A DNA stretch of 55,346 nt from Burkholderia sp. Bp8992 (GTDB lineage: Bacteria; Pseudomonadota; Gammaproteobacteria; Burkholderiales; Burkholderiaceae), in assembly GCF_003853705.1 (NCBI RefSeq), contig NZ_QTQI01000040.1:1-55346 (forward strand), read 5' to 3'. Shown piece by piece: positions 3,758 to 50,730 of this stretch. The notes under the pieces were generated by a model. That model had not been told where the DNA came from and ran no database searches. It worked only from the letters and a program-made list of their open reading frames with translations. Each line of letters opens with the position of its first letter. The first letter of the stretch is position 1. The position numbers and the translations under genes were made by a program.

Positions 3758-4402
3758 ATGCTGACGGTATGGGGACGACGCAACGCGTTCAACGTCCAGA
3801 AGGTGATGTGGCTCGTCGACGAGCTCGCGCTCGCGCATCGGCACGTGCCGGCCGGCGGCCGGTTCGGCGTGCTCGATACGCCCGAGTTTCTCGCGATGAA
3901 CCCGCATGGACGCGTGCCCTTGATCGACGACGAAGGTACCGTCGTATGGGAATCGCACAGTATCCTGCGCTACCTCGCCGCGCGTTACGGGCGCCCCGGC
4001 TTCTGGCGCGACGACCCGGCCGAGCAGTCGCGCGCCGACCGCTGGATGGACTGGGCGCAGACGACACTGCAGCCGACGTTCCTCAACGGCGTGTTCCGCG
4101 GTTACTTCCGGACGCCGCCCGAGCAGCGCGACACCGTGCGCGTCGAGCAGAGCATCGCGCAGTGCGCGCAGTATTTCCAGCTGCTCGACGCAGTGCTGGC
4201 CGAACATCCGTTTCTCGCCGGCGACACGATCACGCTCGCCGACATCGCGGCCGGCACGCACCTGTATCGCTATTTCGAACTCGACATCGCGCGGCCGGAG
4301 CTGCCGCACGTGCAAGCGTGGTACGAGCGCCTGCAGGCGCGGCCCGCGTATCGCGCGAACGTGATGATCCCGTTCGACGACCTGCGCGGCAAGCTCGACT
4401 AG
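3758..4402 (+). CDS. Glutathione S-transferase family protein
   Basis: 214 aa. The start is the ATG at 3758, preceded by AAGGAG; the open frame extends far upstream (to 2405) only as a shadow of the porin. The thioredoxin-like N-terminal domain (1-80) opens MLTVWGRRNAFNVQKVMWLVDEL and contains the glutathione-binding NPHGRVPLIDDEG and VWESHSILRYLA motifs. The all-alpha C-terminal domain includes FLAGDTITLADIAAGTHLYRY, the N-capping box region of GSTs. Likely cytoplasmic conjugation or reduction of electrophiles; the substrate is unknown. Confidence 0.92.
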   Translation: MLTVWGRRNAFNVQKVMWLVDELALAHRHVPAGGRFGVLDTPEFLAMNPHGRVPLIDDEGTVVWESHSILRYLAARYGRPGFWRDDPAEQSRADRWMDWAQTTLQPTFLNGVFRGYFRTPPEQRDTVRVEQSIAQCAQYFQLLDAVLAEHPFLAGDTITLADIAAGTHLYRYFELDIARPELPHVQAWYERLQARPAYRANVMIPFDDLRGKLD

Positions 4403-4465
4403 GCTGGCGCCGCGCCGACGGCGGAACGACTTGCCGGAAGGTCTCGGGAACCGCTGATTGCCGGC

Positions 4466-4975
4466 CTAACGCCGCCGCATGCCTCCCGCCCCGCCCATGC
4501 CGCCGAACCGGTGCATGCCGCCAAACCCATGCCCGACTCCGACCGGGAACGCGCCATGGTGAAAGCCCGCGTCCATCGGTACACCGAAGCGGCGATGATC
4601 GATCGGGTTGAAATGGTTGAAGTGGTTGACGTGATCGAAGTGGTGGAAGCGATGGAACCGATCGACGAAGATGAAGCTCACGCCCGCGCCGATGAACACC
4701 GGCGGCCCCCAGTACCACGCGTCGTCATACGGATAGGCTGCCACCGGATACCACAGCACGCTACCGTCGGCACTTTGCACGATCTGCCAGGTGCCGTCGC
4801 TTTGAAGGCACGCGCGCCCGACGATTTGCTGCGCCGTGCCGTCGATGTCGGCTTGCGCGACGACTGCGCGGCAGTTCGTGCCGTTGTCCGAAGGATCGTC
4901 GATCATTTGCGCAAGGACGGACGTGGAAAGACCGAGACAGACGATGCCCGCCACGGATCGAAACAGGTTGCACAT
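4466..4975 (-). CDS. Secreted His/Phe-rich protein of unknown function
   Basis: 169 aa from the ATG at 4975-4973, which has a good AGGAG site; an upstream in-frame ATG at 5041 lacks one. Signal peptide MCNLFRSVAGIVCLGLSTSVLAQ. Residues about 20-75 hold a small Cys-containing domain (NCRAVVAQADIDG, then GRACLQSDGTWQIVQ) resembling the C-terminal part of glycine-zipper/17-kDa-antigen-type envelope proteins. A WYWGPPV stretch follows, then a striking low-complexity run of FHRFHHFDHVNHFNHFN type at about 113-130 and a Gly/Met/His-rich tail. The His content suggests metal binding at the cell surface, but this is inference. I do not recognise a named family. Confidence 0.7.
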   Translation of the reverse strand: MCNLFRSVAGIVCLGLSTSVLAQMIDDPSDNGTNCRAVVAQADIDGTAQQIVGRACLQSDGTWQIVQSADGSVLWYPVAAYPYDDAWYWGPPVFIGAGVSFIFVDRFHRFHHFDHVNHFNHFNPIDHRRFGVPMDAGFHHGAFPVGVGHGFGGMHRFGGMGGAGGMRRR

Positions 4976-9142: not shown

Positions 9143-10297
9143 ATGGAACGAAGCACTGTCGGCATGCGCTGCAAACCCCTGATCACCGTTGCACTGGCTG
9201 CCGCCGCGTTCGCGGCCGCGTCGACGGCAATGGCCGACCAGGTCGTCAAGATCGGCAGCGTCGAACCGACGACGGGCGGTATCTCGCACCTCGGCAAGGA
9301 CAACGAGAACGGCGCGCGCCTCGCGGTCGAGGAAATCAACGCCAAGGGCCTGACGATCGGCGGCAAGAAGGTCACGCTGCAGCTCGACGCGCAGGATGAC
9401 GCGGCCGACCCGCGCCAGGCCACGCAGGTGGCGCAGAAGCTCGTCGACGACAAGGTCGTCGCCGTCATCGGCCACCTGAACTCGGGCACGTCGATCCCCG
9501 CATCGAAGATCTACAGCGACGCGGGCATCGTGCAGATCTCGCCGTCGGCCACGAACCCGACCTACACGCAGCAAGGCTTCAAGACGACCTACCGCGTCGT
9601 CGCGACCGATGCGCAGCAGGGCCCGGCGCTCGCGAGCTACGCGCAGTCGAAGGGCGTGAAGAGCGTCGCGGTGATCGACGATTCGACCGCGTACGGCCAG
9701 GGCCTCGCGAACGAGTTCGAGAAGAAGGCGAAGGCGCTCGGCCTGAAGGTGCTGTCGCACGACGCGACCAACGACAAGGCCGTCGACTTCCGCGCGATCC
9801 TGACCAAGGTCAAGGGCGAGAACCCCGACGCGATCATGTACGGCGGCATGGACGCCACCGGCGGCCCGCTCGCGAAGCAGGCGAAGCAGCTCGGCCTGCG
9901 CGCGAAGATCCTGTCCGGCGACGGCGTGTGCACCGACTCGCTGGCCGAACTGGCCGGCCCGGCGGCCGACAACGTGCTGTGCTCGCAGGCAGGCGCTGCG
10001 CTCGAGAAGATGCCGGGCGGCGCGGACTTCCTCGCGAAGTATCAGAAGCGTTTCAACCAGGGCATCAAGTTCGACGCACCGTTCGCGTATGACGCGGTCT
10101 ACATCGCGGTCGACGCGATGAAGCGCGCGAATTCGACCGACCCGGCGAAGATCCTCGCGGCGATGCCGTCGACGAAGTACGACGGCGTGATCGGCACGAC
10201 GACGTTCGATTCGAAGGGCGACCTGACGCACGGGATCATCTCGATCTACGGCTACAAGACCGGCAAGAAGACCTTCCTCGACCAGGTGAAGATGTAA
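9143..10297 (+). CDS. Branched-chain amino acid-type ABC transporter substrate-binding protein
   Basis: 384 aa. Signal peptide with hydrophobic core 12-28 and AMA cleavage near 29-31. Mature start DQVVKIGSVEPTTGGISHLGKDNENGARLAVEEINAKGL is the LivJ/LivK (periplasmic-binding-protein type I) signature. Further motifs are ATQVAQKLVDDKVVAVIGHLNSG, YRVVATDAQQGPALASYA and GVIGTTTFDSKGDLTHGI. It captures leucine/isoleucine/valine or related compounds in the periplasm. No permease or ATPase gene is adjacent, so it is an orphan that would have to use a transporter encoded elsewhere. GGAG ribosome site 7 bp before the ATG. Confidence 0.93.
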   Translation: MERSTVGMRCKPLITVALAAAAFAAASTAMADQVVKIGSVEPTTGGISHLGKDNENGARLAVEEINAKGLTIGGKKVTLQLDAQDDAADPRQATQVAQKLVDDKVVAVIGHLNSGTSIPASKIYSDAGIVQISPSATNPTYTQQGFKTTYRVVATDAQQGPALASYAQSKGVKSVAVIDDSTAYGQGLANEFEKKAKALGLKVLSHDATNDKAVDFRAILTKVKGENPDAIMYGGMDATGGPLAKQAKQLGLRAKILSGDGVCTDSLAELAGPAADNVLCSQAGAALEKMPGGADFLAKYQKRFNQGIKFDAPFAYDAVYIAVDAMKRANSTDPAKILAAMPSTKYDGVIGTTTFDSKGDLTHGIISIYGYKTGKKTFLDQVKM

Positions 10298-10305
10298 TCC
10301 GCCGC

Positions 10306-10347
10306 GGCGCCGGCACGACGGGAACGCCACCTGTCGGCGCCGGCGCC
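10306..10347 (+). terminator. Possible hairpin after the binding-protein gene
   Basis: Arms GGCGCCGGC and GCCGGCGCC (9 bp) with a 24-nt loop, 9 bp after the stop. No T run follows, so transcription termination is only a possibility. Confidence 0.35.
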
Positions 10348-10384
10348 ACGCGGACCGATTTCTGATTCGCGGAGACGAAGCATC

Positions 10385-10687
10385 ATGTGTGCAATGGCGT
10401 ATGCGGAATTTCAACAGGAGTTGAAGAAGGCTCAGCTGACGGCGCGCGAGTTCGCCCGCCTGATCCGGATGAACGAAAGTTCGATCACGAACTATTCGAG
10501 CAAGGGCACCGTCCCGTCCCACCTCGCGGTCATCGCGAAACTGATCGGCACGCTGGCCGCGCACGAGATCGACTTCCGGCGCGTGATCCGGCAAATGCGG
10601 ATCGAGCCGAAACGGCCGCGCGGCGTCGGCGTGTTTCCCGCGGCGGAAAAGCCGCGCACGCGGAAAGCCGCGAAAGCCGACGCCTGA
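10385..10687 (+). CDS. Small helix-turn-helix protein
   Basis: 100 aa with a GGAG ribosome site before the ATG at 10385 (a second ATG three codons later is an alternative). Residues about 5-65 form a compact helical DNA-binding-like domain (FQQELKKAQLTAREFARLIRMNESSITNYSSKGTVPSHLAVIAKLIG) with the pattern of an XRE/lambda-repressor HTH. The C-terminal 30 residues are basic (KPRTRKAAKADA). It lies 88 bp after the orphan binding protein on the same strand. Regulatory role inferred; target unknown. Confidence 0.75.
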   Translation: MCAMAYAEFQQELKKAQLTAREFARLIRMNESSITNYSSKGTVPSHLAVIAKLIGTLAAHEIDFRRVIRQMRIEPKRPRGVGVFPAAEKPRTRKAAKADA

Positions 10688-10779
10688 ACGGCGGCATGCG
10701 TCGAACGCGGCAAGGAGATGGACGCTCGACGCTCGATCGATGCGCCCTCACGGGCCGTGCGACACGCGCCGCCCGATCG

Positions 10780-13700
10780 TCACCCCGCCGCCCGCACGTG
10801 ATCGAGCAGCGCCTGCAGCGGATGGCGCACCTGCTTCGACGACATGCGCTTCACCTGGCTGCGACAGGAATACCCGGTCGCCAGCGCCTCGCCTTCGTCC
10901 TCCGGGCCGTCGACGTGCGCCGCCCACGACTGCGCATAGATCGTCTTCGACGTCGCGAGATTGCGCGTCTCATGCCCGTAGGTACCCGACATCCCGCAGC
11001 ATCCGGTCGACTCGACCTTCAACCGCAGCCCGCGCCGCGCGAACACCTGCATCCATTGCTTGCCGCTGTCGGGCGCATTGGTCTTCTCGGTACAGTGCGG
11101 CAGCAACCGGTACGAACCGGTCGCACCGCCCGCACCGGCTTCCGGCAGTGCCTGCAGCAGCCACTCCTGCGGGAGTGCAACTTTCGGTACCTCGGTAAGC
11201 CCCGTCACCTTCAGGTATTCCTGCCGGTACGTGAGCGTCATCGCCGGATCGAGACCGACCAGCGCGACGCCCGAACGCGCCAGCGCGGCCAGTTGCGTCG
11301 CATTGCGGATCGCGGCCTTCTCGAACGCCTGCAGAAAGCCCTGGACGTGCAGCGCCTTGCCGTTCGGTGCGAGCGGCGCGAGCCAGACCTGGAAGCCCGT
11401 ACGCGCCGCCAGCTCGATCAGCGTCGCCAGTTGCCCGGTATCGAAATAGCGCGTGAACGTGTCCTGCACGATGACGACGCTGCGCTCGCGCTGCGCATCG
11501 CTCAGTGCGGCGAGCGCATGCGGGTCGGCCGGCTTCACGTTCCATTGCCGGATCACGGCCGCGAGATCGAAGCGGCTCAGCAGCGGGCTGTCGACCATCC
11601 CGACCTGCCGCTCGAGCAGCGTGCGCATCCACCTCGCACGCATCAATCCGTTGTACAGCGCAGGCACGCGTGCCATCCACGGCATCGTGAATTCGAGCGA
11701 GCCGATCAGGTAGTCGCGCAGCGGCCGCAGGTAGCGCTGGTGATACAGCTCGAGAAAGCGTGACCGGAACTCGGGCACATTGACCTTCACCGGGCACTGT
11801 CCCGCGCACGACTTGCATGCGAGGCAACCGGCCATCGCGTCGTACACCTCGTGCGAAAAATCGGCGTCGCCGCTGCGCGCCGCGCGGCTGTTGCGCCAGC
11901 GCTCGGCCAGGCCGCGCAGAAGCGGCTGCCGCGCACGCGCCGCCGCGACGACGTCGATGCCGGCCTGTCCTTGCAGGCGCAACCATTCGCGCATCAGCGA
12001 CGCGCGCCCCTTCGGCGATTGCACGCGTTCGCGCGTCGCCTTCCACGACGGGCACATCGCGTCGTCCGGATCGAAGTTGTAGCACGCGCCGTTGCCGTTG
12101 CAGTGCATCGCCGTGCCGTAGCTCTGCCACACGCGCTCGTCGATCTGCCGGTCGTGGTCGCCGCGCGTCGGCACCTCGTCGATCTTCAGCAGCCGCATCG
12201 TGTTGTCCGGCGGCGTCGCGATCTTGCCCGGGTTGAACTGGTTGTGCGGATCGAACGCGGCCTTCAGCTGCTGCAGCGACGGATACAGCTCGCCGAAAAA
12301 CGCCGGTGCATATTCGGAGCGCACGCCCTTGCCGTGCTCGCCCCACAGCAGGCCACCATGCCGCTGCGTGAGTTCGGCCACCGCGTCCGACACGGGCCGC
12401 ACCAGCGCGGCCTGCTTCGGGTCCTTCATGTCGAGCGCCGGGCGCACGTGCAGCACGCCCGCGTCGACGTGGCCGAACATCCCGTACTGCAGCCCGTGGC
12501 CGTCGAGCAGCGCACGGAATTCGGCGATGTACGCGGCGAGGTTCTCGGGCGGCACCGCGGTGTCCTCGACGAACGGCTGCGGGCGCGCCTCGCCCTGCAC
12601 GTTGCCGAGCAGGCCGACGGCGCGCTTGCGCATCGCATACACGCGCTTCACCGCATCGTCGCCGGCCGCGAGCGTATGGCCGAGGCGCTCCACGCTCGTA
12701 TCGGTGCGCAGATGCTCGACGAACGCACGCACGCGCGCATCGACGTCGTCCGCGTCGTCGCCGCTGAACTCGATCAGGTTGATGCCGAGCGTCGGCCGCT
12801 GGTCGTCCTGCGGGAAATACTCGGCCACGCTGCTCCACACGAAATCCTTCATCGCGAGCATCAGCACCTTCGAGTCGACCGTCTCGATCGACAGCGGCTT
12901 GAGTTCGAGCAGCGCGCGCGCATCGCGCAGCGCGTCCATGAAGCCCGCATAGCGCACGTTGACGAGCACCGAAACCTTCGGGATCGGCAGCACGTTGAGT
13001 TTCGCCTCGACGACGAAGCCGAGCGAGCCCTCCGCGCCGCACAGCACGCTGTTCAGGTTGAAACGGCCGTCGGGTTCGCGCAGGTGCGCGAGGTCATAGC
13101 CGGTCAGGCAGCGGTTGAGCTTCGGAAATTTCGCGTCGATCAGCGCCGCCTTGTCGTCGCTGATGCGGCGCGCGGTGCGATACACCTTGCCGATACGATC
13201 CTGCCGCGCGCACCGGCGCTCCAGTTCGTCGTCATCGAGCGCGCCGCTGTGCAATTGCTCGCCGCCCATCAGCACGAAATCGAGTTCGAGCACGTGGTCG
13301 CGCGTCTTGCCGTACGTGCAGCTGCCCTGCCCGCTCGCATCGGTGTTGATCATCCCGCCGACGGTCGCGCGATTCGACGTCGACAGCTCCGGCGCAAAAA
13401 ACAGCCCGTGCGGCTTCAGCGCCGCATTGAGCTGATCCTTGACGACGCCCGCCTGCACGCGCACCCAGCGCTGCTCGACATCGATTTCGAGGATCCGGTT
13501 CATGTTGCGCGACAGGTCGACGACGACGCCGTCGGTCAGCGACTGCCCGTTCGTGCCCGTGCCGCCGCCGCGCGCGGCCACGGCAACGTCGCGGTGCGCG
13601 GGCTCGGCCAGCAGTCGTGCCACCAGCCGGACGTCATCGGCATGCGCGGGGTAGATCACCGCCTGCGGCAGGCGCTGGTAGATCGAGTTGTCGGTGGCCT

Positions 13701-40866: not shown

Positions 40867-40882
40867 GTTGTCACGTGACAAC
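40867..40882 (+). other. parS: parS site 1 (perfect)
   Basis: GTTGTCACGTGACAAC, a perfect 16-bp palindrome; the farthest from parA (1.4 kb) and 725 bp from the next site. Confidence 0.9.
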
Positions 40883-41606
40883 TCGTGTTGAGTGTCACGA
40901 CTACGCGTCGAGTCTGGGCAGCGACATGGTTCCATGTGGACCCCAGGCAGTAGCAAATTTGCCTTTCGTAGACCTAGGTTGCTGTAAATCGTATCGATAA
41001 CCACTAAATACGTATTAAAAAATACATATCATGGGGTTTGCGGGTTCGACGCTGGCAACAGCGGGCGAAAATATCATGCGCCCCTATTTCCGCGAGCGGT
41101 TTTGTTCAATTAGCGTGAAACAACATGAAGAAAGTGGCGCAAACCATTGCCAGACAAGGATTTCCGAGAATGCCCCATTTCTCGAAAATGTTTCACGATA
41201 CGCCCGGTAGCGTTGTTGCAAATCCTTCGACACGTAGTTTCGCGCCGATTTGACCCGCTCGCGTACGCCGCGGCCGTAGATCGACGTCGGGATACTTTGG
41301 CGGCAACGCCGGCGCACAACAAAGCAGCGCCTCTCCCCTACCGGCAGCGTGACGAGATGAGACGATGGTACCCTTTGCATAAATGGGGACATATCAACAG
41401 CGACACATCCACACTACAACGGTTGCTCTGTCCGGGTGACCACGTGGCTCATGCTTGAACAAACGCGCGCTCGAGTGAGTAGTCGGTGGTGCAGCTGAAT
41501 ACAGGGCGATAGATCGCTCGCAAACTCGCCACCCTCAAGCACGTGCCCGCGACGACTGGGTGCGCCCTATCGATTAGCCGATCAAGAGGCCACGCCCGCA
41601 GTTTCG

Positions 41607-41622
41607 GTTGTCACGTGACAAC
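41607..41622 (+). other. parS: parS site 2 (perfect)
   Basis: GTTGTCACGTGACAAC, identical to site 1. Confidence 0.9.
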
Positions 41623-41780
41623 TCATCAACGAATCGGGCGAGGGAAACCACATTCAGTGGCAAATCACCGACTGTGAAGCCTCTCGCCAATAGAAGGCTG
41701 CGCTTCTGCTCCATAGGCTGTTCAATCTCACTATCTTCGGAAGATGCTGTGTCGCTAACCCTGGCCGACACCACGAGCCG

Positions 41781-41796
41781 TTTGTCACGTGACAAC
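41781..41796 (+). other. parS: parS site 3 (one mismatch)
   Basis: TTTGTCACGTGACAAC: only the first base differs from the palindrome. Confidence 0.88.
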
Positions 41797-41934
41797 TCGC
41801 TTCGGCGGCGGGTAGCCGTACACAACTCAAAAACCGTATTTCGGATGTAGAACCAGAGTTGTCTGCACCGACGCCACGACCGGATTTGAAATTTTCTGGC
41901 GATGTACACATCGACACGAATCGATTACTAGCGT

Positions 41935-41950
41935 CTTGTCACGTGACAAC
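41935..41950 (+). other. parS: parS site 4 (one mismatch)
   Basis: CTTGTCACGTGACAAC: only the first base differs. Confidence 0.88.
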
Positions 41951-42150
41951 TACAAACCTCATCGACGTTCGAGATTCCTGCTAATCAGAACCGCAGTGTG
42001 CTGAGAACGAAATAGAAAAATGTCACGACAGTCGTCTTTCATGTTTCATCTTCGTCGTCGACATTAGAACAAGTGACTTTTTCGAATCTCTAGGGATGTA
42101 TTGGTAGAGCGATCAAAAATTTATTTTTACTTGAACAATCATCTCTGATG

Positions 42151-42176
42151 ACAAGTAGGCCATTTGGCCCACTTGT
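42151..42176. promoter_or_regulatory. Inverted repeat fused to parS site 5
   Basis: ACAAGTAGGCCA / TGGCCCACTTGT, 12-bp arms with one mismatch and a 2-bp centre. Its last 5 bp are shared with the parS at 42172. It lies 105-131 bp upstream of parA, a plausible operator or hairpin in parAB autoregulation. Confidence 0.55.
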
Positions 42177-42187
42177 CACGTGACAAC
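42172..42187 (+). other. parS: parS site 5 (one mismatch), next to parA
   Basis: CTTGTCACGTGACAAC, 94 bp upstream of the parA start; ParB bound here could influence the parA promoter. Confidence 0.88.
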
Positions 42188-42227
42188 CACATGATCATCA
42201 AGATTCGCATTGCATTGAATACTTCTC

Positions 42228-42276
42228 TGGACATTTTTTCAGTAACTGCATATATTACGCAAAACTCCTTGGAGGA
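42228..42276 (+). promoter_or_regulatory. parA promoter and ribosome binding site
   Basis: -35 TGGACA (42228-42233), 17-bp spacer, -10 TATATT (42251-42256), then a strong GGAGGA ribosome site (42271-42276) 5 bp before the ATG at 42282. Confidence 0.65.
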
Positions 42277-42281
42277 ATTTA

Positions 42282-42977
42282 ATGGCTTTCAAGATCGCCG
42301 TCAGTAATCAAAAAGGTGGGACTGGGAAGACGACCATCTCCGTCAACATCGCGGCTGCGTTCGAAGCCGGCGGCAACAAGGTGGCCCTGATCGATGCCGA
42401 CCCTCAAGGCACTTCTGTCCGCTGGGTCACGAGCGGCGAGAACACGCTGCCGATGACGGTCCTTTCGCTGGCCCCTGCTGGCCGCGGCATCGGTGGCGAG
42501 ATCAAGAAGCAGGACGCGAACTTCGACGTGATCGTCGTCGACTGTCCCGGCAACCTCGAAGATCCGCGCATCGCATCCGTCCTTGAAGTCGCCGACTTTT
42601 GCCTGGTGCCGCTGTCACCGTCGCCGGCCGACCTGTACAGCACCGTCGCGATGATCCGCATGATCGAGTCCATGCGTTCCGTTCGAAACCCTAATCTTTC
42701 TTCCGCATTGATGCTAAATAGTGTCAATGGAAAAACTAAAATGCGTGAAGAAATTTTAAAAATTCTAAGAGCGGAAGAAATAGGGGAGCATCTGCTCGAC
42801 AGCCAGATCGCTCAACGCGAGGTCTACCGTCAGACATTCGCGCTCGGCACCACGATCCACCATCACAATCGATATCTGAAGGGCCTGAAAGAAGCCCGTG
42901 CGGAAATCGAAAAGCTGGTCACGGAAATGGCCCAATACATCGCGTCGACGCGCGCTACCGGAGCCGCCCATGGCTAA
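42282..42977 (+). CDS. parA: Chromosome/plasmid partition ATPase ParA
   Basis: 231 aa. Deviant Walker A QKGGTGKTT with Lys11 and Lys16, switch I IDADPQGTSVRW, Walker B FDVIVVDCPGN. It lacks an N-terminal HTH, so it is the short type (Ib or chromosomal-like) that does not itself bind an operator as in P1. It moves ParB-parS complexes along the nucleoid. It overlaps parB by 8 bp. The stretch 42681-42780 is only 33% GC (my count) with codons such as TTA, CTA, AGA and ATA, sharply unlike the rest of the gene. Confidence 0.95.
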   Translation: MAFKIAVSNQKGGTGKTTISVNIAAAFEAGGNKVALIDADPQGTSVRWVTSGENTLPMTVLSLAPAGRGIGGEIKKQDANFDVIVVDCPGNLEDPRIASVLEVADFCLVPLSPSPADLYSTVAMIRMIESMRSVRNPNLSSALMLNSVNGKTKMREEILKILRAEEIGEHLLDSQIAQREVYRQTFALGTTIHHHNRYLKGLKEARAEIEKLVTEMAQYIASTRATGAAHG

Positions 42978-44001
42978 GGACACTTCGAAAGACAAGAAGC
43001 CGACTGGCAACCTGCACCTCGCCGCCGGCCTGCTGCGCGGACTCGCGCAGGAAAATGCGGCACTCGAGACGAGGCTGCCCGAACCGGCGGCCGTTGCAAA
43101 TGTCGCCGTCGAGACAGCGCCTGCGGGCGCCCCGGCCGCAGTCACGCCCGCCGACACGCCGGATCTTGGCGCGCCGCAGAAGGTGCTGGTCAAGGACTGC
43201 ATCCCGAACCCGTTCAACCCGCGCGTGTTCTACTCGGAATCGAGCCTGCACGAGCTCGCGCTCACGTTGAAACGGGAAGGGCAGATCGAGCCGATCAAGG
43301 TCACGCGGCTCCCGGAATTTCCCGGCAAGCTCGTCGTGATCGACGGGCAACGCCGGCTGCGCGCGACGAGCATCAATGGCGACGAGACCATCAACGCCAC
43401 GTTCCGCACGGATCACACGCCCGAGCAGCTCTACACGATCGCGTATCGCGCGAACCACGACCACGAACGCCAGACGATCTTCGACGATGCGGTTGCATGG
43501 AAGCGCCTCCTCGACGAAAAGGTATTTTCCGACCAGAACACGCTCGCGGAAAAGATCGGCAAGGACAAGGCATCGATCAGCAAGACGCTGTCGCTCAATG
43601 CGCTGCCCAACACGCTGCTGGAGCGGATGGCCAGTGCGAATGACGTGGTCGGCCTGCAGGCGGCGTACTTCCTGAAGCTGATCTTCGAGCGCCTGGGCGA
43701 GCCGACGGCCGACCGGCTGCTGACGGCCGTGATCGACCGGAAGAAATCGGTTCGCGATCTCGAGAATTTCCTGCGGGCGCAGAGCGACGGCAACAAGAAA
43801 ACGGGGCGCACGCGTTACAGCGTTCGTCACGACTTCGCGCTCGAGTCGCGCGCGATCGGCCAGTTGAAGACCTACCCCGACGGCCGTCTGGATCTGCAGC
43901 TCAAGGGCGTTGACGCGTCCCATCAGGAAGCGCTTGCCGACCAGCTCAAGACCGTCATCGATGCCTACGTCGCCGAGCTGGCGACGGCCGCGCAAAAGTA
44001 A
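42970..44001 (+). CDS. parB: Centromere-binding protein ParB
   Basis: 343 aa; ATG at 42970 within the end of parA. The N-terminal segment MAKDTSKDKKPTGNLHLAAGLLRGLA is a likely ParA-contact region, followed by a flexible Ala/Pro linker. ParB/Srx CTPase domain: PNPFNPRVFYSESSLHELALTLKREGQIEPIKVTRLP and IDGQRRLRATS (ParB box, GQRRLRA). HTH: NTLAEKIGKDKASISKTLSLNALP at about 195-220. C-terminal dimerisation domain. It should bind the parS sites at 40867-42187. Confidence 0.95.
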   Translation: MAKDTSKDKKPTGNLHLAAGLLRGLAQENAALETRLPEPAAVANVAVETAPAGAPAAVTPADTPDLGAPQKVLVKDCIPNPFNPRVFYSESSLHELALTLKREGQIEPIKVTRLPEFPGKLVVIDGQRRLRATSINGDETINATFRTDHTPEQLYTIAYRANHDHERQTIFDDAVAWKRLLDEKVFSDQNTLAEKIGKDKASISKTLSLNALPNTLLERMASANDVVGLQAAYFLKLIFERLGEPTADRLLTAVIDRKKSVRDLENFLRAQSDGNKKTGRTRYSVRHDFALESRAIGQLKTYPDGRLDLQLKGVDASHQEALADQLKTVIDAYVAELATAAQK

Positions 44002-44015
44002 CGCGCCAAAAGCAG

Positions 44016-44096
44016 AAGGCCTCGCATCCGCCTTGCATCGCGAAGCCGGACGACCACAAAGTCCGGCGCACGACGCGCCCGCGGCCGCGAGGCCTT
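44016..44096. terminator. Nested inverted repeats between convergent parB and repA
   Basis: Outer perfect 10-bp arms AAGGCCTCGC (44016-44025) / GCGAGGCCTT (44087-44096); inside them a second hairpin GCCGGAC-N9-GTCCGGC (44045-44067). Occupies almost the whole 97-bp gap, so it may end transcription from both sides. Confidence 0.6.
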
Positions 44097-44098
44097 GA

Positions 44099-45415
44099 TC
44101 AGTTGCCTGCGAGACTGCTTTTGAGCAGGAATTCCAGCAGGTCGTCCGAGGTCGGTTCGCCCCAGGTATCCAGTGCCAGCCATCGGAAGAAGCTGGTCTG
44201 CGCGAGCTTGCTCGCCTTCTTCTTCGGCGACAGCGTCAGGTCTTTCGAGCCCACTACCGTCTCGTTATAGCGTTCGAGCAGCTTGGTCTGGTCGTCGATC
44301 TCCAGCTCGCGGAAATACGCGCCGGCTTCCTCGACCTTCGCCGCCAGATATTTGTCGCGAATCTGCTCCTGCTTGCTCTGCGCGGATTCCTTCGCCGGTG
44401 CGGCCGTCTCGGTTCCCTGCCCGTCCGCCAGCGTATAGCCGTGCGTCAGTGCCTTGCGGAAATACGCGGCCACGTTGTCGACCGGCGCCGCATTCTTCTT
44501 CGTAGTCCGATTGAGCGTATAGGCGATCGCCGCCTTGATGCGCTGCGCGCCGTATTGCGTGATCAGCCGGCGCGCCTCCGAACGTGGAATGCCGAACTTG
44601 GCGACTTCCTCGACCAGCGCTTCGTTCTTGACGTCGCCGTCCTCCACCGTATCGGCGCTCTGCTTGCGCGTCACCTTGAATTGCACGGCTTCCACGCTGC
44701 GGCCGGACTTGTGTTCGATCAACTCGAGCGTGTGATCCGATACTTCGTTCACCTCCTGAATGCACGGCACCAGGACCTTGCTCTTGAACAGCTTGTACTC
44801 CTTGTACGACTGCGATGCCTTGTCCTGGCCGAGAATGAGGTCCCGGAATTTCGGCAGCGGGATCTTCGCGGTGATGCCAATCCCTTCGTAGCGCACCGTG
44901 TTTTCCCACAGCGCCAGCGAGTGCGACCGCCGGAATTCGCGAGCGATCCGCATATCGATCAGCGCGTAGATTTCGGGGTTCAGCAGTTCGCTGCGAATCT
45001 GGTCGGAGAAGCTGTACTTCAGCACCGATTGCTCGAGCTCCGCGCCGGCGAGCAGGCCCGACGCTTTCCAGACCGTCGAACGGTCGGCGGCCAGGTAGTC
45101 CCAGTTGACGACGGTACTGATCAGCGAGTTGACCGTGTCCTTCACGTACTTCGTGTTGTTGCTGTTCAGCCCGCTCTCGTGCGAAAGCGACGCGATCGAG
45201 ATCGAGAAGCTCGTCCGGCCAGGCTCGAACGCCTCCTGCCGAAGTGCATTCTTGATCAGCGAACTGAACATCTTGCGCTGCTGCAGCCCGATCTTCCCCG
45301 ACTTGGGCGCGATATGAATCGCCTGGACCGCCTTGCGCAGCAAGTCGGGAGGCTCGGGTGTCTGAAACAGCGAAACCTGTTTGTCGGAGCCTTTGCTTGC
45401 GGGCTTGCGCGGCAT
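44099..45415 (-). CDS. repA: Replication initiator protein, Rep_3-like
   Basis: 438 aa. Two winged-helix-like regions typical of iteron-binding initiators: RKMFSSLIKNALRQEAFEPGRTSFSISIASLSHESGLNSNNTKYVKDTVNSLISTVVNWDYL (about 48-105), then ALWENTVRYEGIGITAKIPLPKFRDLILG (about 168-195) and YKEYKLFKSKVLVPCIQEVNE, which is the Rep_3 signature. It should bind the iterons at 45.57-46.58 kb and open the origin. Convergent with parAB. Upstream are a perfect -10 TATAAT (minus, 45523-45518) and a small palindrome near the start codon. Ribosome site weak (CCGGACATCACG before ATG). Confidence 0.92.
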   Translation of the reverse strand: MPRKPASKGSDKQVSLFQTPEPPDLLRKAVQAIHIAPKSGKIGLQQRKMFSSLIKNALRQEAFEPGRTSFSISIASLSHESGLNSNNTKYVKDTVNSLISTVVNWDYLAADRSTVWKASGLLAGAELEQSVLKYSFSDQIRSELLNPEIYALIDMRIAREFRRSHSLALWENTVRYEGIGITAKIPLPKFRDLILGQDKASQSYKEYKLFKSKVLVPCIQEVNEVSDHTLELIEHKSGRSVEAVQFKVTRKQSADTVEDGDVKNEALVEEVAKFGIPRSEARRLITQYGAQRIKAAIAYTLNRTTKKNAAPVDNVAAYFRKALTHGYTLADGQGTETAAPAKESAQSKQEQIRDKYLAAKVEEAGAYFRELEIDDQTKLLERYNETVVGSKDLTLSPKKKASKLAQTSFFRWLALDTWGEPTSDDLLEFLLKSSLAGN

Positions 45416-45429
45416 CGTGATGTCCGGAT

Positions 45430-45440
45430 AAGGTGACCTT
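45430..45440. promoter_or_regulatory. Palindrome in repA leader resembling the iteron core
   Basis: AAGGTGACCTT, 15 bp upstream of the repA ATG. It resembles the AGGTnACCTT core found in several iterons (for example at 45864 and 45960). Rep_3 initiators often repress their own gene through such operators. Confidence 0.5.
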
Positions 45441-45517
45441 GGTGATAGCGGACTTTATACCTTTTCTCGCTGCGGGGCAACGCCATTTCTCCAGCATCAC
45501 TTTCACTATCGCTCATA

Positions 45518-45523
45518 ATTATA
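45518..45523 (-). promoter_or_regulatory. -10 box of the repA promoter
   Basis: TATAAT on the minus strand, 103 bp upstream of the repA start, in an AT-rich patch. The -35 is weak, as expected for a controlled promoter. Confidence 0.5.
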
Positions 45524-45566
45524 TGATCCTAAAGGGAAATAAATGATTTTCAGGCCTGCAGGGAAC

Positions 45567-46579
45567 CCCATATCCATCTACCTTTGGAAAAAAATACCTC
45601 CCAAAAGCCGCTACCTTTGATGTCCGGGCATCGAAACCCGGCACGAGATTTGCCCTGCGGAAGGTAACCATTCATGGGAGACAAACGTCCGGAATCGAGA
45701 TCGCCGGCCGGATTCGTGGTGCCCTGCAGCACAGCCGTGTTTTCTCCCATAACTTGCTACCTTCATCGTTTCCCATAGGAGGGAACCTGTCAGCTTCGTC
45801 GATGGGGTTGTTTTCGATCAGGACGATGAAAATCGCTCCCATAAATGGTAACCATTGGTTTTCCCCATAGCAGGTAACCTATCTGCGCCAACGATCCAGT
45901 CCATACGAAAGCTTTCCGGAGCACCGACGAGAAATGCAGCCAATCCCGCTGAACTTTCTCCCATAAAAAGGTACCTTTGAGACTCCCCATAACCGGCTAC
46001 CCGAAGAAAATCCCTGTGCGTCAAAGCATTAGAGGATCAAGAAAACTGCCCCATAAAAGGCTACCTTCGTACGTTCCCATAGATGACTACCCTGGGCGAA
46101 TCATGATCGCTTTCCCATAACCGGGTACGCTTGCCCCATATCCACAACCCTGATTCCCCACAACGCGGTACCCCATTCCCCAAATCCACAGACCTGAAAC
46201 CCCAGACCTTTCCACCTGTGCTCCCATAAATGGGTACCGAACCCCCCTCAAACCCTTGTGGCACAAGGCTGTGAGCCGGCTAAAAGTAGTTAAAGAAGTA
46301 AACGTGGTTTACAAAAGATGTAAACACACGTGCGCTGCCACAGAAAGACGAACCCCATAAACCGCTACCAATGGGAGCCGTCTGTGGTACGGAAGGCGTG
46401 TCGACCCTTCGATCCAGGCCTGCGAACACGAGGTTGGTGACTTGTTTCACCGGGATTTCAGGCCTGACAAGGCTCCCGGCAGAGGTGAGTGCCTACTCAC
46501 AAACGCCGAAACGTAGAAACCTATGGGAGGAAATCGCGAAAAAGTCCTCCGATTTGGCATACAGGTTCCCGTTTATGGG
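45567..46579. repeat. Iteron field of the replication origin
   Basis: About 18 copies of a 20-bp repeat, consensus near CCCATAAnnGGnTACCnTTG. Plus-strand copies start at 45567, 45600, 45746, 45772, 45838, 45864, 45960, 45986, 46050, 46076, 46114, 46135, 46157, 46223 and 46354. Minus-strand copies occupy 45659-45678, 46508-46527 and 46560-46579. Four pairs (45746/45772, 45838/45864, 45960/45986, 46050/46076) are exactly 26 bp apart; 46114/46135/46157 are 21-22 bp apart. Copies at 45567, 45600, 46135 and 46157 are the most degenerate. Two DnaA-box-like sequences with mismatches (ATATCCACA at 46138, AAATCCACA at 46182) lie inside. Confidence 0.9.
46283..46325. other. AT-rich element with GTAAAC/GTTTAC hexamers (candidate unwinding region)
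   Basis: Within the iteron field. GTAAAC (46298-46303), GTTTAC (46307-46312) and GTAAAC (46320-46325); the last two form the inverted repeat GTTTACA-N5-TGTAAAC (46307-46325). The surrounding sequence is AT-rich for this genome, fitting a DNA unwinding element or a regulator site. Confidence 0.5.
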
Positions 46580-47919
46580 ACCCACGAATCCACTTCATGA
46601 TCGCCTGCGCACCATGGATTAGCCGGCAGAGGAGGTTCGCGACCGAGGCGGCGGACATCTACGGATCCGCGCAAGCTACAGTTCGAAATCATCCCGGACT
46701 GCATGCGTGTGGTTTTTTGTCCTCACGCATGCGTGTCCGTGGACAAGTTTTTACCGATCGCCCGCCGGCGCTTTTCGACAAATTTAGCCTGTGGACTGTG
46801 CGCAGGGGAAACCATTTCCGGCTGCTTCGTCATGCAGCAGCGGTCCAATTTTCTACCTTTGCCCCAACCGACGCGTCGCGCTGTGTCCCTGGCAAGCTAC
46901 GAGGGGCCCGCACAACCGACCAGGAATGAGCGTCATGCCTACTCGCCATTCGCACAGGTTGCCGGCTCCTGGACCGATCCGGAGATCGTTATGCGCCGAC
47001 GTGAAGATACGGTCGACGAAGAAGCTCACCGTAGTCGAACCGCGGATGGCTCCCGAACATGCTCACCTTCCGGAATTTCGAGATCCCGTAAAAGCTCACC
47101 GATCAGGCATCGCCGCAGGTATCGGCAAGCTGTGAAAATTGCAGTGCCGTCCAGCTGACGCACCATCGAACCAGTCAAATGAAAAACCTGTGGCAAAGGC
47201 AAACTGTCCGTGGTGTATCCACCGACACAGCATCACGAATCAACAAGCCTTGTCTCGACTTCAGCGCCGGAGCAACCTCTGCCAGACGGGCACCATGCCT
47301 TCGCACGGTCCCTCGACGCATGCGTGAAGCGATGCGGGTCAACGTCTTCACCGCACGCACAGTGTTCGGCTTTTCGTCATACGTGCCTGTCGGTGACGAC
47401 CTGCACCGCGACAGGTAACCAAAGCCATAGGTAACCACCCACATCACAGCGTGGCGACGCAATGCGATCGTTTCGATTGTCGGACAAACCGAATCGTGGT
47501 CGTTTATGGGAGGAACCGTCGCTCGAGCCGCGTCGAACGACAACGTAATGCACACGTCGACCGCTGCTGCGGTGATCATGGATGCGCGAGGCGGCTCACG
47601 TCACGCATGAGCGTGTCGACATCACCACCGGTGAAACAGCCGTCGATGTCGCGCATCGAACTGTGCGTGCATATTCGTTGCAGTCACCGGAGCGTGCGAT
47701 ACGGCGTCCCTGTCTCTATCACGCGACGGCCGTGCAGGGTTCCCGTCATCTCCCATACGCGTATCCCGATTCCGTCATCAACATCACGTTCGCGCCACAT
47801 TTTTCACGACACGGTTATGATGCACAGGTCCTGATCGCGACATGACGACTGATCAGGGCAGGGGCGGTATCTCGATGGTTTTTCAATCCGTGATAGTCAT
47901 CAAAAAAGAGAGTTCAGCG
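46580..47919. other. 1.3-kb gene-free interval right of the iterons
   Basis: No gene supported. Contains the inverted repeat GCATGCGTG / CACGCATGC with a T-rich 14-nt loop (46701-46732) and the palindrome ACGCATGCGT at 46726-46735 and again at 47316-47325. A single iteron-like half (TTTATGGGAGGAACC) lies near 47503-47517. Confidence 0.6.
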
Positions 47920-48385: not shown

Positions 48386-49291
48386 TCAGTGTCGCGCGTC
48401 CGGCGCGGTCGCGTTCCCCGTCGTTTTCAGCCAGTCCTTGAATGCACGCACGGCATCGTCGTTCGCGCGTGCGGCTGCCACGTACGTGAAGTAGCGCCAG
48501 GGCGGCAGTGCCGGTTCGCTGAACGGCTGCACGAGCCGGCCTTCGGCGATGTCGTCGGCGACGAGCGCGATCGGCCCCATTGCGACCCCGAGCCCGTCGA
48601 GCGCGCCTTGCAGTGTCAGGTAGAAATGCTCGAGCGTGAGCGAGTGCCGCGGCACGAGATTCGGATGCCCGGCCGCCGCGAGCCACTCGGGCCACATGCC
48701 GGGATAGGTTGCCGCGTGCAGCAGCGTAAAGCCTGCGAGATCGGCGGGCGTGTCCAGCGGCCGACCCTCCAGCAACTTCGGCGCACACACCGGCAGCCGC
48801 ACTTCGGACAGGAATTCCTCGGCGACGTAACCGTCGACGGCCTGCGGGCCACCGCGAACGATCAGGTCGACCTTGTCGCGCAATTTATCGATCGGCTCGT
48901 TTGACGTCGACAACCGCACCTCGATGGCCGGATGGGCGACCTGGAACGACGACAGCTTCGGCACGAGCCAGCGCAGCGAAAACGTGGCGGGCGCGCTGAC
49001 GCGCAGCACGCGCTGCTGCGCGTGGCCGAAGTGCTGCGCGGTGGCGAGCGCGATCCGGTCGAACGATGCGCCGACTTCGGCGAGATAGGCCCGGCCGGCG
49101 TCGGTCAGCTCGACGCGCCGGTTGTGGCGTTCGAACAACGGCCGCCCGAGCCACGCCTCCAGTTGCTGCACGTGCCGGCTGATTGCGCCGTGCGTCACGC
49201 ACAGCTCGTCGGCGGCCAGCGTGAAGCTGCCGAGTCGTGCGGCGGCTTCGAACGCGCGCAGTGAATTCAACGGAGGGAGTCGTCGGGCCAT
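48386..49291 (-). CDS. LysR-type regulator (GcvA-like) divergent from purA
   Basis: 301 aa. HTH LPPLNSLRAFEAAARLGSFTLAADELCVTHGAISRHVQQLEAWLGRPLFERHNRRVELT in 5-62; effector domain with VDLIVRGGPQ and GVAMGPIALVADDIAEGRLVQPF, typical of the GcvA group. It is divergent from purA (140 bp between starts), an unusual partner for a LysR protein. Confidence 0.92.
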   Translation of the reverse strand: MARRLPPLNSLRAFEAAARLGSFTLAADELCVTHGAISRHVQQLEAWLGRPLFERHNRRVELTDAGRAYLAEVGASFDRIALATAQHFGHAQQRVLRVSAPATFSLRWLVPKLSSFQVAHPAIEVRLSTSNEPIDKLRDKVDLIVRGGPQAVDGYVAEEFLSEVRLPVCAPKLLEGRPLDTPADLAGFTLLHAATYPGMWPEWLAAAGHPNLVPRHSLTLEHFYLTLQGALDGLGVAMGPIALVADDIAEGRLVQPFSEPALPPWRYFTYVAAARANDDAVRAFKDWLKTTGNATAPDARH

Positions 49292-49431
49292 TACTTTGTT
49301 TCGTGTGATATTTCTTCACGCGAAGGTTCAGGTTTAATCGTTTGATCGGGCGATACAGCTCCGCCAATATGGCACACAAACGGCCGGCTCGGCCGAGCGA
49401 GTGTCTGAATTTCTCACATGGAGTGCGGAGC

Positions 49432-50730
49432 ATGCCGAACGTGGTGGTAGTGGGTGCCCAATGGGGCGACGAGGGTAAAGGGCGCGTCGTGGACTGGCTG
49501 GCGGCCCAGGCCGATGTCGTCGCGCGCTACAACGGCGGCCACAACGCGGGCCATACGCTGGTCGTCGGCGGCAAGACGTACAAACTCGCGCTCCTGCCGA
49601 GCGGCGTCGTGCGCGGCAAGCGCGGCGCGATCGGCAACGGCGTGGCGCTCGATCCGGAAGCGCTGCTCGCGGAAATCGGGCGGATGGCCGAGCTCGGGCT
49701 GTCGGTGACGCCTGACAATCTGTCGATCGCCGAGAACGCGACGCTGGTGCTGCCGATTCACCGGGCAATCGACCAGGCGCAGGAGCGTCTGCGCCGGGAA
49801 CCGATCGGCACCACGCTGCGCGGGATCGGGCCGGCCTACGAGGACAAGGTCGGGCGCCGCGGGCTGCGCGTCGGCGATCTCGCGGAGTCCGGCCGGCTTG
49901 CCGCCAAGCTTGACGTGCTCGTCGACCATCACAACGCGTGGTTCCGCGGCCTGGGGCTCGACGAATATGACCGCGACGCGATGTTGGCGACGCTGGTCGA
50001 TCTCGCGCCGAAGATCCTGCCGTTCGTCCGTCCTGTCTGGGCCGACCTCAACGACGCGACCGATCGCGGCGAGCGCATCCTGTTCGAGGGTTCGCAGGCG
50101 GTGATGCTGGATATCGACTGGGGCACGTACCCGTTCGTGACGTCGTCGGGCACCGTGGCGTCGGCCGCGGCGGCCGGCACCGGGCTGGGAGCATCGAAGC
50201 TCGGCCATGTGCTGGGTGTGACCAAGGCGTATGCGACGCGTGTCGGCGGCGGCCCGTTCCTCACGGAGCTGGACGACGTCACTGGCGAAACGCTGCGCGC
50301 GCGCGGGCAGGAATTCGGCGTCAATACCGGCCGGCCGCGACGCTGCGGCTGGCTCGATGCGGCACAACTGCGCCAGGCCGTCAGGATCTCGGGCATCGAT
50401 TCGCTCGCGCTCACGAAGCTCGACGTGCTCGACGGCTTCGAGTCGATCGAGCTGTGCATCGGTTACGAACTCGACGGTGCGCGTGTCGACCATCTTCCCG
50501 CAAGCCTCGATGCGCAGTCGCGCGCGAAGCCTGTGTACGAACGATTCGACGGCTGGCACGGCACCGTGAAGGGCGTGCGCGAGCGTGCGGCGCTGCCGCG
50601 CGCCGCGCAGGATTTCATCGCGCGCATCGAAGCGGTCGCGGGCGCGCCGGTGTCGATGATCACGACCGGTGCGGAACGCGACGACACGATCGTGTTGCGC
50701 AATCCTTTCGATGCGGCGGCGGCTGCGTAA
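49432..50730 (+). CDS. purA: Adenylosuccinate synthetase
   Basis: 432 aa from the ATG at 49432 with TGCGGAG upstream; a 30-codon upstream extension is not conserved. The GTP-binding P-loop [15 protein letters not shown] with catalytic Asp13 and His41 ([10 protein letters not shown]) is present. Further family motifs are [47 protein letters not shown] and [12 protein letters not shown]. The usual GKGK is GKGR here. Joins IMP and aspartate with GTP for AMP synthesis. Burkholderia normally has a housekeeping purA on chromosome 1, so this looks like a second copy beside a secondary origin. Confidence 0.94.

Follow-up and report, generated by a model that had tools for sequence, protein, structure and literature searches.

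An 84-bp everted pair of half-parSc1 sites around an IHF-like core in the pC3 replication and partition module of Burkholderia sp. Bp8992, and its copies in the Burkholderiaceae

We analysed a stretch of 55,346 nucleotides from Burkholderia sp. Bp8992 (contig NZ_QTQI01000040.1 of assembly GCF_003853705.1), referred to below as the window. The region from 40867 to 46579 contains the replication and partition module of the replicon pC3 (c3): five parS sites, the partition genes parA and parB, a convergent gene for the initiator RepA, and an array of iterons. All of the parts listed by a first-pass annotation of this DNA were located in the region, and domain searches of the open reading frames (ORFs) found parA-parB and the convergent repA as claimed. 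This 5.7-kb region is the known origin and partition region of pC3/c3, the third replicon of the Burkholderia cepacia complex, here in another strain. Between parS1 and parS2 lies an 84-bp element that the annotation had overlooked, and to which, apart from the parS sites themselves, strong conservation in this part of the module is confined; the surrounding module is known, the element apparently undescribed. Coordinates are given in Table 1.

Table 1. Features of the pC3 module and its surroundings, in window coordinates
Feature	Position	Strand	Basis
parS1, perfect GTTGTCACGTGACAAC	40867..40882		identity 0.996 over 31 loci vs 0.42 in both flanks
Everted half-parSc1 element, 84 bp, IHF-like core centrally	41114..41197		pattern matched in 0/100 shuffles of the window; conserved
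Left arm CGTGAAACA, half of main-chromosome parS plus one base past its centre	41114..41122		invariant in 33/33 rows, the rows being picked by a regular expression for the arms
IHF-like core YAANNNNTTR (CAAACCATTG), element position 27	41140..41149		position kept in 30/33 pC3 elements
Right arm TGTTTCACG	41189..41197		one variant among the same 33 rows (L011, TGTTCCACG)
parS2, perfect	41607..41622		match to GTTGTCACGTGACAAC; conserved
parS3, G1T	41781..41796		match to GTTGTCACGTGACAAC; conserved
parS4, G1C	41935..41950		match to GTTGTCACGTGACAAC; conserved
parS5, G1C	42172..42187		match to GTTGTCACGTGACAAC; conserved
Promoter-like site of parAB, TGGACA-17-TATATT	42228..42256	+	-10 block conserved
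parA, 231 aa	42282..42977	+	ParA-type ATPase domain
parB, 343 aa	42970..44001	+	ParB_N and HTH_ParB domains
Two-tier hairpin between convergent parB and repA	44019..44097		strong predicted fold
repA, 438 aa, Rep3 initiator	44099..45415	-	Rep3_N and Rep3_C domains; convergent with parB
Probable repA promoter block, TATAAA on the - strand	45448..45466	-	conserved run; promoter reading inferred from sequence
Iteron array (16 clear copies, 2 weak) that includes four doublets of 26-bp spacing	45567..46579		match to core; conservation
Three outlying iteron-like sites, 3 mismatches each	47085, 47495, 47752 (span 47085..47767)	+, -, +	match to core; conservation

An everted half-parSc1 element and its distribution

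The element has the form CGTGAAACA-66 bp-TGTTTCACG. Nine of the 16 positions in the main-chromosome parS (parSc1), TGTTTCACGTGAAACA, as given in PMC5450999, are reproduced in each arm; the two halves are turned outward, and each runs one base beyond the centre of the palindrome. The full 16-bp parSc1 palindrome has no match in the window at up to three mismatches, so that only the split halves are present. The open-access literature matches listed, judged by their titles and abstract openings, included no description of this element.

A survey of 65 genomes of the genus Burkholderia, using the exact pattern at an arm spacing of 60-90 bp, found the element in 52, and the pC3 ParB is encoded in 53. 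In 51 of the ParB-positive genomes the exact element is on the contig of parB, 1,537-2,111 bp from it. The remaining two (G009 and G031) harbor an element with one changed base in one arm; the element therefore accompanies the pC3 ParB in 53/53 genomes. The exact pC3 copies are 84 (40), 85 (10) or 86 bp (1) long. Among the twelve ParB-negative genomes there was a single match (G041, on a 2.8-Mb contig), and this copy is the chromosome-2 (c2) version.

Using what we take to be the c2 parS as query, four c2 origin regions were fetched. Each contains a copy of 85 bp that has a single mismatch, in the outermost base of an arm. The c2 region was then searched for in the 65 genomes by DNA homology, with no selection on the arms. 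It was found in all 65, and in all of them the element is 85 bp long with invariant 8-bp arms; the left arm reads CGTGAAACA, and the right one TGTTTCAC plus a final A (64 genomes) or G (1 genome). We assign these copies to c2 on three grounds: the presumed c2 parS in the four fetched regions, contig sizes reaching 3.9 Mb, and their occurrence in every genome. In the genome that contains a record titled chromosome 3 (G005, locus L024), the c2 and pC3 copies are on separate contigs of 3.0 and 1.18 Mb. In both c2 and pC3 the interior of the element diverges while its arms and length hold. Further conserved blocks flank the c2 element (loci L121-L185), for example ATCATAACGAAA about 115 bp away.

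Twenty genomes were scanned in full for exact 8-bp arms with spacers of 62-92 bp. The scan returned 37 places, 20 in c2 and 17 in pC3, and none elsewhere; the three genomes with a single place (c2) are the three without a pC3 ParB. The reversed pattern, used as a control in the same scan, gave no match. From the base composition of the window, about 0.0007 exact matches with 9-bp arms are expected per genome by chance. Spacers of 28-58 and 91-121 bp gave the pattern in 0/65 genomes. The existence of the element and its distribution are well supported.

Outside the genus, the exact pattern occurs in 145 of 299 genomes drawn evenly from the family, with up to six copies per genome (control 0). 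We studied 45 contexts other than pC3, six from the survey of 65 genomes and 39 from the family survey. Element lengths in these are 83 (1), 84 (16), 85 (14), 95 (2), 96 (7), 97 (3), 99 (1) and 100 bp (1); overall, the lengths listed cluster at 83-86 and 95-100 bp. By raw count, a protein with a ParB_N domain is encoded near the element in 40/45 contexts. The ParB cluster, all 40 members of which contain ParB_N, lies 0.9-4.3 kb from the element in 39 contexts and at a distance of 6.2 kb in the remaining one. Clusters of the ParA type, in two sizes (23 large, 17 small), likewise occur in 40/45 contexts, and 15/45 are c2-like, with KfrA and integrase clusters; for the ParA, KfrA and integrase clusters, representatives were domain-tested. 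Context L113, which runs into the end of its contig, retains KfrA and integrase neighbours.

The centre of the element resembles a binding site of integration host factor (IHF), the consensus of which is WATCAANNNNTTR. Among the 45 elements this consensus is matched exactly in 11 and with one mismatch in 17, as compared to 0.3 and 3.9 in Markov-shuffled interiors. The match starts at position 46 in 12/16 of the 84-bp elements and at 47 in 12/14 of the 85-bp elements. In the 27 elements that fit within two mismatches at these positions, A is enriched 9-14 bp upstream of the match; an A-tract upstream of the core is the usual layout of IHF sites. A 10-bp IHF core at the mirrored position 27 is found in 59/65 c2 and 30/33 pC3 elements. 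Most likely, IHF binds the middle of the element and bends it.

Partition and replication parts of the module

Exactly five sites in the window are within three mismatches of GTTGTCACGTGACAAC, where 0.15 are expected, and none of 100 shuffles reached five. Conservation was assessed in an alignment of 31 loci (L021, L031, L033, L034 and L035 were left out), in which the parS sites have identities of 0.93-0.996, as compared to 0.36-0.66 in the flanking 50 bp. The five palindromes of the first-pass annotation are thus borne out against shuffles and by conservation among relatives. At up to two mismatches, 30/33 genomes have five parS sites and 3/33 have four. Across genomes, 65 of 162 copies are perfect, and the changes fall at positions 1 (82), 11 (19), 6 (6), 16 (6) and 8 (1). 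We take these sites to be the published parSc3, although the sequence GTTGTCACGTGACAAC was not located in the searchable text of PMC5450999. The substitutions named in that paper fit the parS sites of the window. ParBc3 tolerates changes at positions 1-16 and 6-11 of parSc3, and G1T or G1C in a single arm keeps high ParBc3 binding (PMC5450999). The three imperfect sites of the window have G1T or G1C in one arm, the changes reported there to leave binding high.

A plasmid of Cupriavidus pinatubonensis (L037) encodes a ParB 56% identical to that of pC3 and contains, upstream of it, eleven parSc3-like sites at 4002-4948; position 6 is T in nine of these. In B. pyrrocinia (L035) an iteron-like site (37094) and a parS-like site (37423) lie about 12-16 kb from the pC3 module.

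On the replication side, the iteron core CCCATAANNGGNTACC has 18 matches with up to four mismatches between 45567 and 46579, 14 on the plus and four on the minus strand. Sixteen have up to three mismatches, whereas 300 Markov sequences averaged 0.34 such matches and never had more than 3. The copies at 46373 and 46512 have four mismatches, a level common elsewhere in the window, and may be due to chance; the earlier count of about 18 iterons accordingly consists of 16 clear and two weak ones. Identity over the 31 loci is 0.90 in the iterons and 0.66 in the spacers. The four doublets, with a start-to-start distance of 26 bp, lie at 45746-46091 and are kept in most relatives; 26-bp spacings were counted 136 times in the 35 iteron-bearing sequences. 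Most sequences have 66 or 76 bp between the first and second doublet, a difference of about one helical turn. The three outlying iteron-like sites reach about 1.2 kb past the array, and their identities are 0.82-0.93 vs 0.46-0.67 in their flanks. When GC skew is cumulated over the window, the minimum falls at 48,922, some 2.3 kb beyond the array, which is consistent with a replication start in this region. One DnaA box with one mismatch (ATATCCACA) is retained in 9/9 sequences looked at. In B. arboris (L021) the distance from parB to the iterons exceeds that in relatives by about 1.3 kb, which suggests an insertion between parB and the array.

The promoter that parAB had been given has a conserved -10 stretch, one of the few conserved blocks upstream of parA other than the parS sites; however, the region contains only one promoter-like match, below the mean of 2.9 in its shuffles. 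The structure annotated as a nested terminator is a strong predicted hairpin (-50 and -59 kcal/mol, z of -3.9 and -3.3 for the two tiers), and the gap between parB and repA folds better than base-shuffled copies in 31/31 loci. Because no T-run follows this hairpin and a terminator scan gave no flag there, it stays a candidate terminator. Two low-scoring RNA family matches, to isrK at 45589-45658 (29 bits, gathering score 50) and to WT1-AS_4 at 46593-46731 (23, gathering score 60), were taken as chance. An ORF resembling adenylosuccinate synthase (purA) lies near the origin at 49342-50730, and the annotation of B. pyrrocinia BX1 has such a gene in the corresponding position.

The assignment to the third replicon agrees with what has been published. 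The c2 and c3 origins of B. cenocepacia are plasmid-like, with rep genes and iterons, and the c3 iteron consensus is tCCCATAAacggntACCtnt (PMC4948915); this consensus occurs beside repA of the window. The parSc3 site and its ParB were characterised in PMC5450999. Seven Burkholderia plasmid records, 550 kb to 1.26 Mb in size, match the window, and in these ParB is 87.5-94.5% and Rep 95.7-99.1% identical. ParB has 34 related loci: 32 from Burkholderia (L001-L032) are 85-99% identical, including two whose records bear the title chromosome 3, and L033 and L034, at 87% and 71%, are contig ends of one assembly. In B. cenocepacia NCTC13227 (L014, L033 and L034) the pC3 par region lies near the ends of three contigs, probably an assembly artefact. 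Iteron consensus, ParB identity and gene order thus fit pC3/c3, as the first-pass annotation had proposed, and the window's parS is presumably parSc3.

Its description of the module as compact and self-contained was not established. Iteron-like sites occur beyond the end given to the module, and the module contains conserved half-sites of another replicon's centromere, which suggests dependence on host factors. The parts are also modular. A plasmid of Paraburkholderia sp. D15 encodes a Rep 74% identical to that of pC3 and has iterons of the same kind, mostly in 26-bp doublets, whereas its ParB and ParA are each 38% identical to the pC3 proteins. At 9395-11151 of this locus (L036) a different palindrome, TTTCCACGTGGAAA, is repeated at five places and extended to GTTTCCACGTGGAAAC at four. 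The replication half was therefore kept while centromere specificity switched.

Candidate ligands and function of the element

The arms are common to replicons whose local partition proteins have diverged: compared with the pC3 ParB, the ParB of the c2 context L039 is 32% identical and that of L080 25%. Repeated palindromes were found near the element in 5/9 loci examined (GTCCGAATTCGGAC in three loci, TCTCCACGTGGAGA and TTGATACGTATCAA), and none were found in the other 4/9. These palindromes differ from one another, from the arms, and from those of pC3 and c2. Common arms beside diverged ParBs and differing palindromes suggest that the ligand is probably a shared host factor, not the local ParB, and we rejected the local ParB as ligand of the arms because the repeated palindromes, where seen (4/9 loci had none), are unlike the arms. 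KfrA was rejected as a general ligand, since it is present in only 15/45 contexts. A reading as a miniature inverted-repeat transposable element was also rejected, because elements on different replicons agree in arms and length but not in their interiors.

Several observations point to the main-chromosome ParB, ParBc1. Among loci not chosen by exact arms there are three arm variants: L011 (from the genome of L045), L031 (from the genome of L046) and B. vietnamiensis pBVIE02 (L038). All three are T5C/A12G. When both arms of parSc1 are changed, the 5-12 transition is, apart from changes at the distal position, the only one that keeps ParBc1 binding in vitro (PMC5450999). A review of ParB binding to half-parS sites shows a model with a single ParB dimer spanning a pair of half-sites (PMC7022226). 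Deletion of parAc1 alters the replication profiles of all three chromosomes, by a mechanism that was called open (PMC4948915). From the match of the arms to parSc1, the T5C/A12G variants, half-site binding and the parAc1 phenotype, we infer that ParBc1 and IHF may act together at the element; the binding of each protein and the coupling function are putative.

In the mechanism that we propose, the ParB of pC3 (ParBc3) would load at the five parS sites and RepA would initiate at the iterons, as in the known type of system. IHF would bend the middle of the element and thereby bring the two parSc1 half-sites together in a fixed helical phase. ParBc1 would bind the paired half-sites without a full parS, and hence without taking over partition. 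The element, usually present once per secondary replicon and near that replicon's own par genes, would couple the main Par system to replication or origin handling. On balance, we think it probable that half-sites bent by IHF and bound by ParBc1 link secondary origins to the main-chromosome Par system.

A number of points weigh against binding and coupling by ParBc1 and IHF. There are three arm variants to argue from, and in one of them, L038, the IHF-like core is at position 34, not 27. Half-parSc1 has only intermediate ParBc1 binding in vitro, which is partial support at the same time, and single-arm T3C, T3A and T5A likewise keep high ParBc1 binding (PMC5450999), which means that there are settings where T5C is not the only change tolerated. 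The parAc1 phenotype could act through DnaA instead, and according to a published abstract each Par system positions its own replicon only. The IHF-like core of the pC3 and c2 elements usually misses two or three of the 13 consensus bases, and four of the 12 elements of 95-97 bp fit the consensus within one mismatch, with starts at 47-51. The 45 contexts were found by exact arms, so arm invariance is there by construction, and one of them (L039) is the c2 copy of G041, which is also counted among the 65. No ParB is encoded in the fetched stretch of five of the 45 (L043, L083, L095, L105 and L113). The Paraburkholderia D15 and Cupriavidus pinatubonensis plasmid loci contain no element at up to two arm mismatches in the 12.8-13.3 kb read. 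Finally, arms of the Pseudomonas type were found in 4/369 genomes of the class, which possibly include few Pseudomonas, with lengths of 82, 88, 102 and 108 bp and no clustering, and thus lent no support.

Four other explanations were weighed. The first is that another conserved host protein, such as a nucleoid or replication regulator, binds the parS-half-like GTGAAACA, with IHF bending the element as in datA- or DARS-like elements. Arms common to replicons with diverged local ParBs and different palindromes would fit any host factor, and the IHF-centred layout recalls IHF-dependent replication control elements; however, the specificity of ParBc1 agrees with both the match of the arms to parSc1 and the T5C/A12G variants, and we know of no other host factor with such a half-parS-like site. 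We regard this explanation as unlikely.

Improbable, in our judgement, is an accessory site for site-specific recombination or dimer resolution by a tyrosine recombinase. The combination of IHF and arm sites recalls phage att sites, and Phage_integrase and KfrA clusters adjoin the element in the 15 c2-like contexts; however, that integrase cluster is absent from the other 30/45 (other integrase families were not searched there), and a recombinase core cannot consist of everted arms separated by 66 bp. We give scarcely more credence to the idea that the module is an ordinary pC3 module and the element a neutral relic of an ancestral chromosomal parS. The module is indeed the published c3 origin, but a relic would neither keep its arms and length around a diverging interior, as in c2 (65/65) and pC3, nor recur near different par systems. 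A structured RNA gene with the 9-bp inverted repeat as terminal stem was rejected as very improbable: the stem is perfect in 32/33 sequences, but compensatory changes occur in 0/9 pairs over 33 sequences, all 65 c2 copies keep their arms unchanged around a diverging interior, and an Rfam scan at the element gave no match up to an E-value of 1.

With its putative c1 ParB half-sites in 65/65 c2 and 53/53 pC3 replicons, the element is a concrete candidate for coordination of extra replicons by the main chromosome. More tentatively, secondary chromosomes and megaplasmids of the Burkholderiaceae may carry a cross-replicon control element, an IHF-bent and helically phased ParBc1 half-centromere pair that was acquired or kept in different lineages and that licenses or times replication or origin handling; such an element could be something that plasmids repeatedly need in order to turn into stable secondary chromosomes. 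The sequence of the element might in addition be useful as a marker of secondary replicons, and it bears on how plasmids become chromosomes.

Comparison with known systems

The parS of plasmid P1 has an IHF-bent centre with ParB boxes on both sides. The layout described here, half-parS arms around an IHF-like core, is possibly similar, with an IHF-like centre between putative ParB boxes. P1 parS, however, binds the plasmid's own ParB, whereas the arms of the element match the centromere of the main chromosome.

The module itself shares its Rep-iteron origin, iteron consensus and plasmid-like layout with chromosome 3 (pC3) of B. cenocepacia J2315, of the Bsr3 family (PMC4948915, PMC5450999), and presumably its parS as well. 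The accessible parts of these two papers do not mention a half-parSc1 element on c2 or c3.

In Pseudomonas aeruginosa, the chromosomal ParB binds heptamer half-sites, GTTTCAC or GTTCCAC (PMC7022226, PMC10419367). These are scattered in the hundreds, whereas the element is a pair of fixed length around an IHF-like site at a secondary replicon. Vibrio cholerae ParB2, which binds the central 39-mer, is a segregation protein that controls replication of a secondary chromosome, as we propose for ParBc1, but it does so on its own chromosome (PMC3688505). The V. cholerae crtS is a cross-replicon site on Chr1 that binds the initiator of Chr2 (PMC11711613); here the arrangement is the opposite, with a Chr1-type site on the secondary replicon. 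In the centromere clustering of Agrobacterium, the ParB of the main chromosome is linked to secondary centromeres through contacts between centromeric proteins (PMC9239152), whereas in Burkholderia we propose a site in the DNA.

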